Source: Branchiostoma floridae
Taxonomy: Eukaryota > Chordata > Leptocardii > Amphioxiformes > Branchiostomatidae
Assembly: GCF_000003815.2 (NCBI RefSeq)
Contig: NC_049981.1
Location: forward strand, 32,021,349 to 32,085,348
Length of the DNA stretch: 64,000 bases
Direction of reading: 5' to 3'
Of this stretch, positions 43,201-61,800 are shown one piece after another (the stretch's first letter is position 1; each line of letters starts with the position of its first letter). Both the position numbers and the translations under genes were made by a program. Under the pieces are notes generated by a model. The model had not been told where the DNA came from. It worked only from the letters and a program-made list of their open reading frames with translations, and did no database searches.

Positions 43201-46200
43201 ATCCGCCGCACCAGTTGTTCCTGTTCACCATCGCCGTCACACTGTTGATGGTATGGCTCTACAGGTTCTTCTTCATGCATGAGCTCAGTAAGTTATGCCC
43301 TTCACCTGTTTGTTAAAATGTTTGTCACGAAGCTTTCCACGAAATCGTCTTCCGGGAGGGACGTAAAACGGGGGTCCCGTGCTCGAGGAGTTGCCTCGAC
43401 CACGTTAAACAGCCTCATTACCCACACTTTGGGTACCTACTGGCTGCAAAATACACCCGATATTATTATACTAATCTTACCCATGAAATGTTCTTGCGCA
43501 TAATTATTTGTCTGTTATGGCTAAAGATTAGTCACTTGGAAAGTGCAGGATAATTCTTAAAAGGTTTGCAACGTCTGATTATGTCAGAAATGAAAAATGA
43601 AGAGGAGTTTTCTTTGTCTTGTAAAAGTTTTACTTAAACTGGAAATTCATTTTTATGAGTATCCTAACTACATGTATACTCAGTTCAAACGTACAGATGT
43701 ATGAACTATCATAAAGTTATGGCATTCATTTGATGTCACATGTAGATCTGAAAAATTAAATTTTAGTTAGTCAAGAAGCTACTAGTAACTTGCCTGTGTT
43801 ATAATATATTTGTGTTTAAAGCAGTTTAAAGCAGGTCTGACCTGAGTCATTTCCTGGTAAAATAAATAAAGTGAAAGTGTGTGTGAAACTTTAAGATTTT
43901 GTGTTTATTTCTTACACGTACCTCCCTTCCTGTAGGCATGTGGGAGAGATTCAAGCTGTCGCTTTTCAAGACAGTTAGGAGGCTGCCCTACTTTGGGCCA
44001 CAGGTAAGACACTGCTACTGTAGTGTTACATGTGAAGGAAGTGGACAAGACATTTATGGATCAGTTAAAACTTAGAAACTGTAGTTGTTTTCTTTGAAGT
44101 ATCTGACAATGCATCTGATGCTTCCCCAGATTCAGAAGGAAGTACACAAGGCCCCAGACATGTTTGCCTGGGAAAATCAGACTGAGGGGGTGCTTTCCTC
44201 TCGGCCTCTAGGAGTCTGGTTTTCCCGGGGTATAGACATGTATAAAATAGTTAAAAGGAACTATTCAGGACACAGTTTAAAGTCTGTTGTGTTTTTGTTT
44301 GTCTTTGAAGCATCGGCTGTTTTCCTCAGATCCAGGGGAAGTTGGAAAAGTCACCTATGAGTATGAAGCAGTTAAAAGGAAGAAGTCAGAAAACAGTTTA
44401 AACAGTTTTCTTTCTTTGTTCAAAGTTCCTGACCATGTAGCCATTGTCTTTCCCAGATCCAGGGGGAGTTTGAACTTGGAAAAAGGCATTAGACATGTAT
44501 GAAACAGTTTAAAGGAAAAAGTCTTTAGTGTTTTTTTTGTTTGTTCAAAGTTCCTTACATGTATTCATTGTCTTCCTTAGATCCAGAGGGAGGTTGAAAA
44601 GACCCTTGACAAGATGGCGGGGTCGATGTTCCAGCTGCCCCCGGGGATGAAGTACGTCTACGGGCTGCCCGAGAACGGCCTGTCTGAGGACCAGGTCATG
44701 CGGGCCGTCAAGGGCTACCAGCAGCTCGGTAAGGAACTACTTTCTCATTAGTATGTCAGATCTCAAAATACCACCTGCATATACAGGTTAGGGCAGGTAA
44801 AATTGAAGCTGTGCAGGTATTTCTGATGTCTACCTGCACCTAACCTGCACTGGTCCATGTACTGGGTTTTATGCATTATTTGATGTCCTGTCATGTAGGT
44901 GTACATGGATTGTTATTATCTGCATTGACTTTTACCACCTATAGAGTATAAAAGAAAAAGAAAAATAGCAATGGTACCTGAACAATTTTAGTATGATCCA
45001 TACTTCCTAACTTCAGAGTGGTGCAGGTAAAATTGTCTGGTGCAGGTAATTTTCAATGTTACCTGCACCAGTGCAGGTATGCAGAAAAAAGTATTTCGAG
45101 CCCTGTATGTCAAAAAGCAGATAGGATATGATTTTGTCATATGTCAGACGTTTCAGACACTATCCCATATCGTGTCATTGATGAAAGACATTGGATGGTT
45201 GTCTGAAACGTCCGACTGTTTCCAAAATCATCTCCAGTTGCTGAATCAGTTTTGAAGAAACAATGCTTGCTTGATGTTGAAAGTTGTTGAATCTAAAAAG
45301 CTATCAGTCACTGAAGTGGAGTACTATGTAGAGCTTTATACTTAAACATTATAGTACATGATATTCATGGACCTAGTGGCTATTGATAGCATAACAGCAC
45401 ATTGTAGAAAAACAAAGCTACATTGTTGGTAATCATGGGTAAGTTGTTCAGAGTCTGACCTTGAAGTTTTTGTGCCTCGGTATAAGTGATATCTTGATAT
45501 CTTTCAAAAATTAAAATGTTTCCTTTTATTGCAGGCCACGTTGACTGGAAAAAAGGAAATGTTTCGGGCACTGTTTACAGTGGACAGCCTGAGCTGACGC
45601 AGCTCTGCACCAAGGTGTGTTGTTTGTGTGTCTGTTTTGTTTTGTTTGTTTACTGTTTTGTTTGTTTACTAACTTTTAGGGTAACACTACTAGTGTAACC
45701 ACTCGTTTACCCACTAGTTTACACAGGTGTAGTTGGATAAACTCTTTTCTTACCATCTGTGAAAGTTTCATTAGTAAGAATACCTTGAACCTTAAGCGAG
45801 AAACTCTGTGCCGGCAGGTGTACGGCGAGTTTGCGTGGTCCAACCCGCTGCACCCAGACGTGTTCCCCGGCGTACGCAAGATGGAGGCAGAGGTCGTGGC
45901 CATGACCTTGAAGATGTTCAACGCCGGAGCGAACGCCTGCGGCGCGGTGAGTCACCCATACACGTGGAAAAGTGACAACTGACTATCTCAACTTCAGACT
46001 TTTCCTACAAGACAGCTTTGTGTTTGGTAGTGTCGGTTACGCCTGGGTCATATTTCCCATCCGGAGTCTGGCCAGACAGGTTTGGCGAATGAAAAGAATA
46101 AAAGGCAACAAAATCACAATACGTACTGAAAATATACCAGAGCATGAATATGAAATATAGCAATAAAGCAACACTGTCTAACGTATTGTTTGTTTACTAG

Positions 46201-58817: not shown

Positions 58818-61800
58818 ATGGCGCGAGTGCTGATCGTGGGAGCCGGGCTGACCGGGGCCGTGAGTGCGTCTCTGCTGAGGAGGGAGCTGCAGCAGGCGTG
58901 CAGCATCGTGGTGTGGGACAAGGCGAGGGGCGCGGGTAGGAGCACACCTACATGTATCTCATACTGAACTGTAGGCTAGTGCACTAACGTCAGTACTGTA
59001 TGTACAGTAGGCTAGTGCACTAACGTCAGTTACTGTATGTTTACTGTAGGCTAGTGCACTAACGTTAGTACTGTATGTAACGTTACTGCAGGCCTGTAGC
59101 ATCGTGGTGTGGGACAAGGCAAGGGGAGCGGGTAGGAACTCATCTACATAAACGTTATCTCATAGTGAACTGTAGGCTAAAAGTTAACGTTAGTATTAAA
59201 GTTGTATGAACTGTACTGTAGGGCTGCAGGATCGTGGTGTGGGACAAGGCAAGGGGGGCGGGTAGGAACACATCTACATGTAACGTTATCTCATAGTGAA
59301 CTGTAGGCTAGTAAAGTTAACGTTAGTAAGTTAGTTGTATGTACTGCAGGCTAGTGCACTAACGTTAGTAAGTTGCATGTACTGTACTGTAGGCCTGCAG
59401 GGTCGTGGTGTGGGACAAGGCAAGGGGGGCGGGTAGGAGCACATCTCATACTGCTGTATACTCAATACTGTACAAATGTATTTGTTAGACAAGCTTTTCA
59501 GGGCTGCATTTAGCTGTTCTTCATAATTTTGTAATACATGGCTCTATAGAATACATACGAGTTAACGTTACCTCTGTAACGTTATAACGTTACTGAGCCA
59601 AATTTGTGTGTATCATAAGAAGAGAACGCATGAAGCTCCAAGACAATTCTTTACGTCACCATCCAAAGTTAATAGGAAGGCCCTGACTTGAATCCTGTAG
59701 AGTGACTACATGATATACTAAGTCTTGATATATGCATTGCTTGCATAAACATTATGACATTTAAGTTACACATCTGTCTTAACACAAAACGAATCCAACA
59801 AATAGTGTTTGTCAATGTTAACTTAAAGACGACTTCTTTAGGCAGTTCAGCTCCTTCAATACCGCTTAGTTAAAGGAAATACGTTCTTATGTCCAGTATG
59901 AGTAGTAATTACTGTTTGCGGTGTTGATTATAGGAGGCCGCATGAGCACCAGTCGGTGTCCCGAGGACCCACAATGCACAGCTGATCTGGGAGCCCAGTA
60001 TGTGTCGGCCACACCGGATTACGCCAAGTCACATGCAAGGTAACTTTATCAGTTTAATTTAAGGATTTTATTATAGGGGTCCAAGCTTAAGTGTAACTTA
60101 GAGTAGCCGCATGACAAGTGCTATAGGTGCAAGACTTTAGTATTGTAGGGGGTCCAGGGGCATCCACCTCCCATGGTGCAGAGTTTTAGAGAACTTAAAG
60201 TTAAAATGGTGCATTGTAAGTTATCTCGAGTGGCAAAATTGCTATTAGAGAGGTCACAGTAGAACTTCTCCTGTGACCTCAAGTGACCTAATAACATCTC
60301 TGGTCAGTCAGAATTTCATACCTATCAGAGGATGTGCTCCACAGTGTAAAGCCTACTAAAGGCGTCTTCAGAGTGTCTACAGCATCTGATTTCGAATTAT
60401 TTTGTTATTTCCCCCCCCCCCCCCAGTTTTTATGAGGACCTGCTGAGCGCGGGAGTGCTGAAGCCGCTGTCGACGCCCATCGAAGGCGACCGTTCCGACC
60501 CGTCCACCAATCACTACGTGGCGCCAGCGGGAATCAGCTCCGTGGTGAAACACTTCCTCAAACAGGCAGGTGGGGGAAGTAAGTCTCTCATACTCCACCG
60601 ATCAAGTGATTGATTGATTGATTGATTGATTAATTGACAAGCGATAGATTTGATTTTACATCCATGGTTATCAACACATCAATTTATTTATTATTTGATG
60701 GATTAATTGATGGCTTTACTTCCAGGTTGATCGATACTAAGTGCATTGATTGATTGGCTTATTTATTTATTTATTTATTTGGATTCTCCACACTGGAGGG
60801 TATGGCGGAACAGGTGTCAAAAGACACCTTTTCGAAGCCGCCATACCTTATTGATTGATTACTCTATGATTGATCTTAATTGTGAAATTGATGACAAGTG
60901 ATTGATGTAATTTTGCTTCCATGGTTCCAAGCATGGTGTCACCTCTCTGTAGAGGATGAACTGAACTAAACTACATTAATTGATTGATTGATCTATTGAT
61001 TGATGTACATACGTGGTTGATTTGTTGCTTGATTGGTTAATTGATGAATTTTACTTCCAGGTTTACCAATACATCAGTTGATTGGCTTATTGGTTCATTG
61101 ATTGATCCATTGATCAACTCATTAATTTATTGGATGATATTGATTGATGAATCAATGGTATTTCCACTTATATTTGAAAAACTCAGCACAAACAATCATG
61201 AATGAAAGCAAATAGAAATTGAATTGATGCCCTGATACTAAAGGTTGTCCATATTTCCTTAGATGCAGAGGTGCATTTTGGACACCAAGTATCGGAGATC
61301 AGAGCAGAGAAGACTGCGGGCGCGGGAAAGTGGCGCGTGGCGGCGCAGAACGGGACAGAGGCAGAATTTGACGCCGTCGTCCTGACGATGCCCGTGCCTC
61401 AGATTCTGGGACTCGCAGGAGTGAAGGCGCTTCTGGGTAGGGCGGCAGACATTGGTCCTGACAGTTGAAGCCCCAGCAATCTATTTCCAAGATTCTCAGT
61501 CATTCTAAAGTACATATAAAGTTAAAAGCTGAAAACAAAACAGCAGGATTGAATTGTGCTTACAGTGGTCTGAATATTTCAGGCCCCTCTAGATCTTTGG
61601 GGAGGGGCCTGACACAGAACTGGACGGCAGAATTTGCATCACACAGACAAGTAAGAACAGAATGCTTAAGGGAAACTTGTATCTGACTTTCAGTCTTCCA
61701 TCTCTAATAGGGAAGGAAACTTAAGTACTGGAAAGAATATTGTTGTGTATTGCAGATCAAATCAGCCAGATTTCTTTGATTCTTAAACTTGATAACTTGC

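Follow-up and report, generated by a model that had tools for sequence, protein, structure and literature searches.

The window, that is the whole 64,000-nucleotide stretch of amphioxus DNA analysed here, carries two neighbouring genes whose complete frames were read from the sequence.

43936..53147, + strand: SGPL1, 13 exons, 502 amino acids, complete frame
58818..63664, + strand: RNLS, 7 exons, 354 amino acids, complete frame

The gene models match human SGPL1 with 651 bits and human renalase with 401 bits, respectively. The SGPL1 model leaves out an upstream exon near 43122-43272, and exon n of our numbering corresponds to exon n+2 of an initial annotation of this DNA. That annotation placed at least six boundaries at the edge of tandem arrays; all seven boundaries that it named do adjoin a direct-repeat array. 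The seven arrays span six exon-intron borders of SGPL1 and one of RNLS, with units of 30-220 bp that contain 10-61 exonic bases each. They are listed under the name that we give them below, together with one SGPL1 array for comparison.

44121..44609, + strand: SGPL1 exon 2 acceptor mirage; real junction 44581; three decoy acceptors, before 44130, 44330 and 44457
46752..47243, + strand: SGPL1 intronic repeat array, no junction spanned (comparison)
48438..48780, + strand: SGPL1 exon 9 acceptor mirage; real junction 48722; two decoys, before 48473 and 48616; 59 exonic bases
48822..49074, + strand: SGPL1 exon 9 donor mirage; real junction 48869; one decoy donor, before 49022; 47 exonic bases
49636..50538, + strand: SGPL1 exon 10 donor mirage; real junction 49659; 220-bp unit; three decoys, 49877, 50097 and 50326
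50764..50831, + strand: SGPL1 exon 11 acceptor mirage; real junction 50822; 30-bp unit; one decoy, before 50792
50963..51606, + strand: SGPL1 exon 11 donor mirage; real junction 51024; 134-135-bp unit; four decoys, 51159, 51293, 51427 and 51545; 61 exonic bases
58892..59450, + strand: RNLS exon 1 donor mirage; real junction 58936; three decoys, 59132, 59262 and 59433; about 44 exonic bases

The intronic portion of the exon 9 donor decoy matches at 39/60 only, and the exon 11 acceptor array, which lies under the BLAST threshold, was detected by TRF and by eye. A second-copy search of the single assembly returned one match for the exon 2 region. The human proteins align without gaps at the array junctions if the outer copies are used, so that the authentic boundary is the edge of the array. 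That the arrays are found on the intronic side is largely a consequence of the outer copy being the spliced one. The coding sequence is untouched, as had been claimed. The accumulation of decoy splice sites, also claimed earlier, amounts to 17 decoys at the seven boundaries, every one with its AG or GT intact. For fifteen of these the alignment crosses the boundary; the third exon 10 decoy and the one at the exon 11 acceptor are backed by other repeat evidence. Use of a decoy is predicted to lead to a premature stop in 16/17 cases; the exception, at 50792 (exon 11 acceptor), is in frame (+30 nt, which would add 10 residues).

Likeness to published amphioxus mirages

Such structures are known as mirages, and mirages in the amphioxus Adh3 gene were reportedly described by Canestro in 2002, as cited by others. 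The SGPL1 and RNLS arrays share features with mirages: the unit spans a boundary, the authentic boundary lies at the edge and the copies carry AG or GT. For globin genes, the accessible text of PMC3087553 describes amphioxus mirages that include a 157-bp duplication of the exon 2 donor of BflGb9, and gives as mirage traits regular splicing despite the copies and length variation between haplotypes or cells. Like the Adh3 and globin mirages covered in that text, the SGPL1/RNLS arrays affect donor as well as acceptor sides; unlike them, they involve six borders in one gene and one more in its neighbour. Haplotype and somatic instability has been demonstrated for the Adh3 and globin mirages (PMC3087553, same portion), whereas the arrays of SGPL1 and RNLS are known from one assembly.

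The available sections on lancelet PGBD5 (PMC3902484) report imperfect 60-bp and 108-bp repeats that overlap splice sites, as in SGPL1 and RNLS, and cite troponin C too; one annotated PGBD5 exon lies inside the repeats, whereas our models require none. According to excerpts of PMC2632668, amphioxus VCBP3 introns hold exon pieces with splice sites beside the coding exons, much like our arrays, but these partial exons are given there as data not shown and without the name mirage. A potato RdRp gene shares with SGPL1 and RNLS the tandem duplication of a segment with an intron-exon border and the splice signals there (PMC4974935, in its accessible part); the new potato intron is used, in contrast to the inner copies of SGPL1 and RNLS, which are probably idle. 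The part of a huntingtin paper at hand mentions tandem repeats, and border duplication was not found in it. No genome-wide mirage count was found in the available texts of the literature searched, in which subscription journals were scarcely represented. The amphioxus minisatellites over exon-intron junctions that the initial annotation mentioned correspond, as far as these texts go, to published mirages of the same anatomy. Since the arrays are of this known kind, the locus is new and the phenomenon is not.

We consider the SGPL1 and RNLS arrays to be very probably amphioxus mirages, in which a tandem duplication straddles the border, the outer copy is spliced and the inner copies are idle intron. 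The starting event would be a head-to-tail duplication of a DNA segment across the exon-intron border, through slippage or template switching and in some cases where the two ends of the unit, exonic and intronic, share a short match; later expansion, as in any minisatellite, may follow. Read by eye, AACACACA is common to both unit ends in one sampled array (L041) and TACAGGG in that of the SGPL1 exon 11 donor; other clean arrays share merely 0-2 bases. The outermost copy would keep its connection with the remaining exon and splice, while the inner copies would turn intronic, with AG and GT intact but, from what is understood of exon definition, presumably unused. As the protein is unchanged, the array could then drift as near-neutral sequence.

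Arrays at exon borders inside and outside the window

Seven of the nine arrays in SGPL1 and RNLS span a junction, where 1.8 to 3.3 would be expected (P 0.0002 to 0.016). This placement test used two models, each at two limits, on a list compiled by hand that holds nine arrays or, with a TGAT-rich one, ten. A stricter test in the window, in which the exons were shifted against BLAST repeats, gave 5/42 edges versus 2.25-2.35 expected (P 0.06-0.08) and, for repeats of at least 90% identity, one edge versus 0.34-0.38 (P about 0.3). Gene ends are counted among the 42 edges, and two of the seven arrays miss the BLAST threshold. Because this neighbourhood is repeat-rich and the locus had been chosen by the initial annotation, a test outside the window is fairer.

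A comparison along the lines of the earlier proposal, a genome-wide test of array edges against shuffled positions, was made on a sample of 21 loci with 163 exons from the same genome, the expectation coming from equal intervals placed nearby. A local repeat spans 12 of the 326 exon edges versus 3.41 expected (P 0.00015), and 8 of 14 sampled intragenic arrays span a border versus 2.58 expected. The latter count is confined to arrays flanked by two called exons with less than 4 kb between them, and predates the CCT genes, which add one array away from any border. Before counting, we removed simple repeats with a period of 1-6, pairs of repeats that scored under 40 bits or lay over 1,000 bp apart, and exons with their middle inside a repeat (one, L034 2059-2108), and the pooled test leaves out the window and four globin loci, which were picked because they are published. 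The exon caller, at score 17, found 8 candidates in reversed sequence versus 54 in real sequence over blocks C1 and C2 (46 exons after overlap removal), so about 15% of called exons could be false calls; the corresponding numbers for all three blocks were 13 and 78.

Two readings of this excess compete. The first, which we put forward tentatively, is that minisatellites in amphioxus would be founded preferentially at exon-intron borders, duplication or its retention being promoted by something about the border. It builds on the roughly 4% of sampled exon edges that carry a border-crossing array, several times the near-neutral prediction, from which involvement of a border feature would follow. 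Our guess is that arrays start easily from exonic sequence near a border, and that straddling copies survive while duplications within exons are removed. It is also conceivable, if somewhat short of an even chance, that junctions merely tolerate arrays, with duplication uniform over introns and borders and the excess arising from detection bias and clustering in repeat-rich genes. Repeat coverage is indeed flat (4.3% at the border, 4.2% at 100-200 bp into the intron), detection bias reached 1.2-1.44 fold in simulation and may explain part of the excess, and the excess clusters in few genes: it falls to 5/282 edges versus 2.28 (P 0.094) when L034 and C2 are left out, in line with the modest result of the stricter test in the window. 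Against uniform duplication stand the count by locus (7/21 versus 2.7 expected, P 0.004) and the repeats of at least 90% identity, for which detection bias should be small; these span 7/326 edges versus 1.31 (P 0.0002), and among intragenic arrays of that identity six of seven cross a border where 1.05 would be expected (rounded inputs). The suggestion that some mechanism targets or tolerates junctions thus divides: tolerance is well supported, whereas targeting draws moderate support from the edge and array counts, with the flat coverage, the concentration of the excess in 7 of 21 loci and the possible detection bias against it. On balance, a bias towards junctions is likely. In ten arrays the mean relative length of the exonic toe was 0.26 versus 0.5 if uniform (P 0.005), to which we give little weight, since the input values were entered manually and long toes in the sampled arrays are limited by the requirement of an uncovered exon middle.

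Function, artefact or RNA

Decoys might be kept by selection, for alternative splicing or as intron seeds. The intact dinucleotides of all 17 decoys and the in-frame exon 11 acceptor decoy would fit, and intron gain has been proposed for mirages (PMC3087553) and described for tandem duplication in potato (PMC4974935) in the accessible parts of these papers. However, young or homogenised copies would be expected to have intact dinucleotides as well, insert lengths are not restricted to multiples of three, and the stops predicted for 16/17 decoys make a selected function improbable. Extra copies from mis-assembled haplotypes or reads are less probable still. At two sampled loci there are signs that would fit such an origin, the copies of L039 being 100% identical and the duplicate of L032 being followed directly by a run of N; the available texts also report PGBD5 copy numbers that vary between assemblies (PMC3902484) and one mis-assembled globin draft locus (PMC3087553). 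The copies within SGPL1 and RNLS, in contrast, diverge from one another at many sites, the 157-bp BflGb9 duplication was found again in this assembly at its published size, at one of four globin loci, and re-sequencing upheld the PGBD5 repeats (PMC3902484, same sections). The initial annotation also raised the reinsertion of RNA, fully or partly spliced, at the junction, which is scarcely credible: exonic bases within introns would by themselves fit and nothing else was found in its favour, whereas the exon toe of the decoys continues directly into a copy of the intron to which it belongs, arranged head to tail at the original site, and no exon-exon joins were seen in the decoys.

Distribution among genes

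Mirages are also present among the sampled genes, in a WW-domain gene, a kinase-like gene, myosin VIIa-like and myosin Ib-like genes, an unconventional myosin and SSADH. Among the myosins, whose classes beyond L028 and L034 we take from the appearance of their sequences, 6/22 edges of unconventional members carry one versus 1/144 in class II (by locus 3/4 versus 1/10, P 0.041). The three CCT genes had none at 48 edges. Genes therefore differ widely in how far the process affects them, most class II myosins and the whole CCT sample being devoid of mirages. After the myosin contrast, germline or housekeeping expression was considered as the driver, from which we predicted, in advance, a CCT rate above that of class II myosins; the 0/48, on few edges, leaves this idea unsupported.

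In border-straddling mirages the splicing machinery has to pick one of several near-identical sites lined up one after another, which makes them a natural test of that choice; they are also a standing source of duplicated splice signals that might give rise to introns. The border excess, if confirmed genome-wide, would indicate a duplication process tied to gene structure. Candidate border features are the step in composition, the splice-site sequence and co-transcriptional structure.

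Border-straddling arrays in SGPL1 and RNLS

The window (C3:32021349-32085348, on one of the 431 contigs of the 513 Mb genome, probably that of Branchiostoma floridae) holds two adjoining plus-strand genes, SGPL1 and RNLS, which cover the finding. Exons taken from the sequence yield open frames in both, and the proteins match human sphingosine-1-phosphate lyase 1 (4q6r, 651 bits) and human renalase (3qj4, 401 bits), respectively. The initial annotation, whose SGPL1 exon numbers are ours plus 2, had described tandem arrays at seven boundaries of these genes, and self-comparison, TRF and pairwise alignment together revealed a direct-repeat array at every one of them:

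SGPL1 exon 2 acceptor, plus strand
SGPL1 exon 9 acceptor, plus strand
SGPL1 exon 9 donor, plus strand
SGPL1 exon 10 donor, plus strand
SGPL1 exon 11 acceptor, plus strand
SGPL1 exon 11 donor, plus strand
RNLS exon 1 donor, plus strand

Repeat units are 30-220 bp long and include 10-61 exonic bases. The alignment to the human proteins is gapless at the array-bearing junctions, which argues by homology for the outer copy of each array as the working splice junction. The inner, intronic copies carry decoy splice sites, and AG or GT is kept in all 17. In the aligned decoys, identity of the exonic part to the real exon is 82-98%; the SGPL1 exon 10 decoys (17/23 and 18/23 exonic bases alike) and the outermost exon 2 decoy (22/31) are lower. 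If used, 16 of the 17 decoys are predicted to cause a premature stop, the sole exception being that at 50792, which would add 30 nucleotides in frame.

The window also contains the following repeats and gap:

1625-2303: minisatellite, 19-bp unit, outside any gene placed here
25005-25104: 100 N, assembly gap
29909-30450: minisatellite, 156-bp unit, outside any gene placed here
31557-32330: minisatellite, 348-bp unit, outside any gene placed here
46752-47243: several copies of a diverged unit of about 50 bp, within the long SGPL1 intron and away from junctions
54207-55203: between SGPL1 and RNLS, 33 copies of a 30-bp minisatellite unit; either strand has a long open frame (364 aa), with no evidence here for genes
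56322-56850: minisatellite, 41-bp unit, outside any gene placed here

Mirages in other amphioxus genes

The SGPL1 and RNLS arrays belong to an already known phenomenon, the amphioxus mirages, and the minisatellites at exon-intron junctions mentioned in the initial annotation are these published structures. Published work describes mirages in amphioxus globin genes, with reference to Adh3 and further loci (PMC3087553), the same phenomenon in PGBD5, with reference to Adh, globins and troponin C (PMC3902484), and whole or partial exons that carry splice sites within VCBP3 introns (PMC2632668). As a positive control, four of nine globin matches were fetched, and one (L032) carried a repeat at 157 bp distance across the exon 2 donor, the size given for BflGb9 in PMC3087553.

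Further loci of the same assembly comprised one 100-kb stretch each from contigs C1 and C2, taken at an arbitrary 8.0 Mb, 14 myosin and two aldehyde dehydrogenase loci picked by family matches with repeats unseen, and three CCT chaperonin genes. Their exons are predictions, called by coding and splice scores or anchored by family matches, and perhaps 15% of those on C1 and C2 are false. Mirages were found in:

WW-domain gene: two adjacent acceptors, units of 113 bp and 67 bp
Kinase-like gene on C1 (Pfam match under the curated cut-off): donor side
L028, myosin VIIa-like: mirage
L034, myosin Ib-like, 1-3101: four edges of three accepted exons, the densest locus in the sample
L039, unconventional myosin: mirage
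L041, SSADH, 1886-2460: donor array, about 11 copies of a 51-bp unit, with 42-44 of its bases exonic and 7-9 intronic

Every L041 unit couples a donor with an exonic AG shortly downstream. Two further cases are weak: L033 (36 bp at 86%) and C2:88456 (44 bits, 80%). L040, the second aldehyde dehydrogenase, carries an array inside an intron but no mirage. Repeats spanned 1/144 exon edges in class II myosins and 0/48 in the CCT genes. A diverged intronic duplication occurs in both L033 (3119-3404) and L036 (1941-2226), class II myosin loci that lie on C9 and C11 and closely resemble each other; it therefore likely predates their split.

Frequency of border crossing

Within SGPL1 and RNLS, 7/9 arrays span a junction (7/10 counting a TGAT-rich one), where placement models expect 1.8-3.3 (P 0.0002-0.016). 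With intervals shifted within the same neighbourhood as the control, the excess was weaker (5/42 edges vs about 2.3 expected, P 0.06-0.08). The share of sequence in local repeats is 18.9% for the window vs 9.1% and 2.5% for the two 100-kb samples.

Border-crossing arrays are probably commoner than random placement predicts, which is a new quantitative lead. We pooled 21 loci, with 163 exons in 285,719 bases and with the globins and the window excluded, and compared their exons with same-length intervals within 2 kb whose middle was likewise required to be repeat-free.

Spanned edges and loci in the pooled test, and a separate count of intragenic arrays
All edges: 12/326 vs 3.41 expected, P 0.00015
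Loci with a spanned edge: 7/21 vs 2.7, P 0.004
Repeats of at least 90% identity, 21 loci: 7 edges vs 1.31, P 0.0002
Without L034: 8/320 edges vs 2.68, P 0.009
Without L034 and C2: 5/282 edges vs 2.28, P 0.094
Without L034 and C2, at least 90% identity: 3 edges vs 0.47, P 0.013
Intragenic arrays spanning a border: 8/14 vs 2.58, P 0.0012
Intragenic arrays without L034: 6/12 vs 2.21, P 0.011

Simulation put detection bias at 1.2-1.44 fold; before the CCT genes were included, the count was 12/278 edges vs 3.29, with P 0.004 after 1.44-fold correction. Few genes contribute the excess. Local-repeat coverage is 4.3% at the border, 4.2% at 100-200 bp and 3.1% at 300-500 bp into the intron, so that repetition is about equally frequent for bases at the border and in the intron; on the exon side, coverage starts at 4.3% and has dropped to 0.2% at 60-100 bp. 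Since arrays seldom cover exons, the excess lies in array ends that cross borders.

Origin of the arrays

The copies lie in place, head to tail, with the exonic toe of each unit running on into its own intron, and no exon-exon joins were found in the SGPL1 and RNLS alignments or the sampled loci; the arrays are therefore DNA duplications. A border-straddling segment may have been duplicated by slippage or template switching, which we consider the likely route. By eye, the unit's exonic end and its intronic end have AACACACA in common at L041 and TACAGGG at the SGPL1 exon 11 donor, and 0-2 bases at L039, L034 and L028. The apparent success of the outer site over the decoys, as judged by homology, would fit exon definition.
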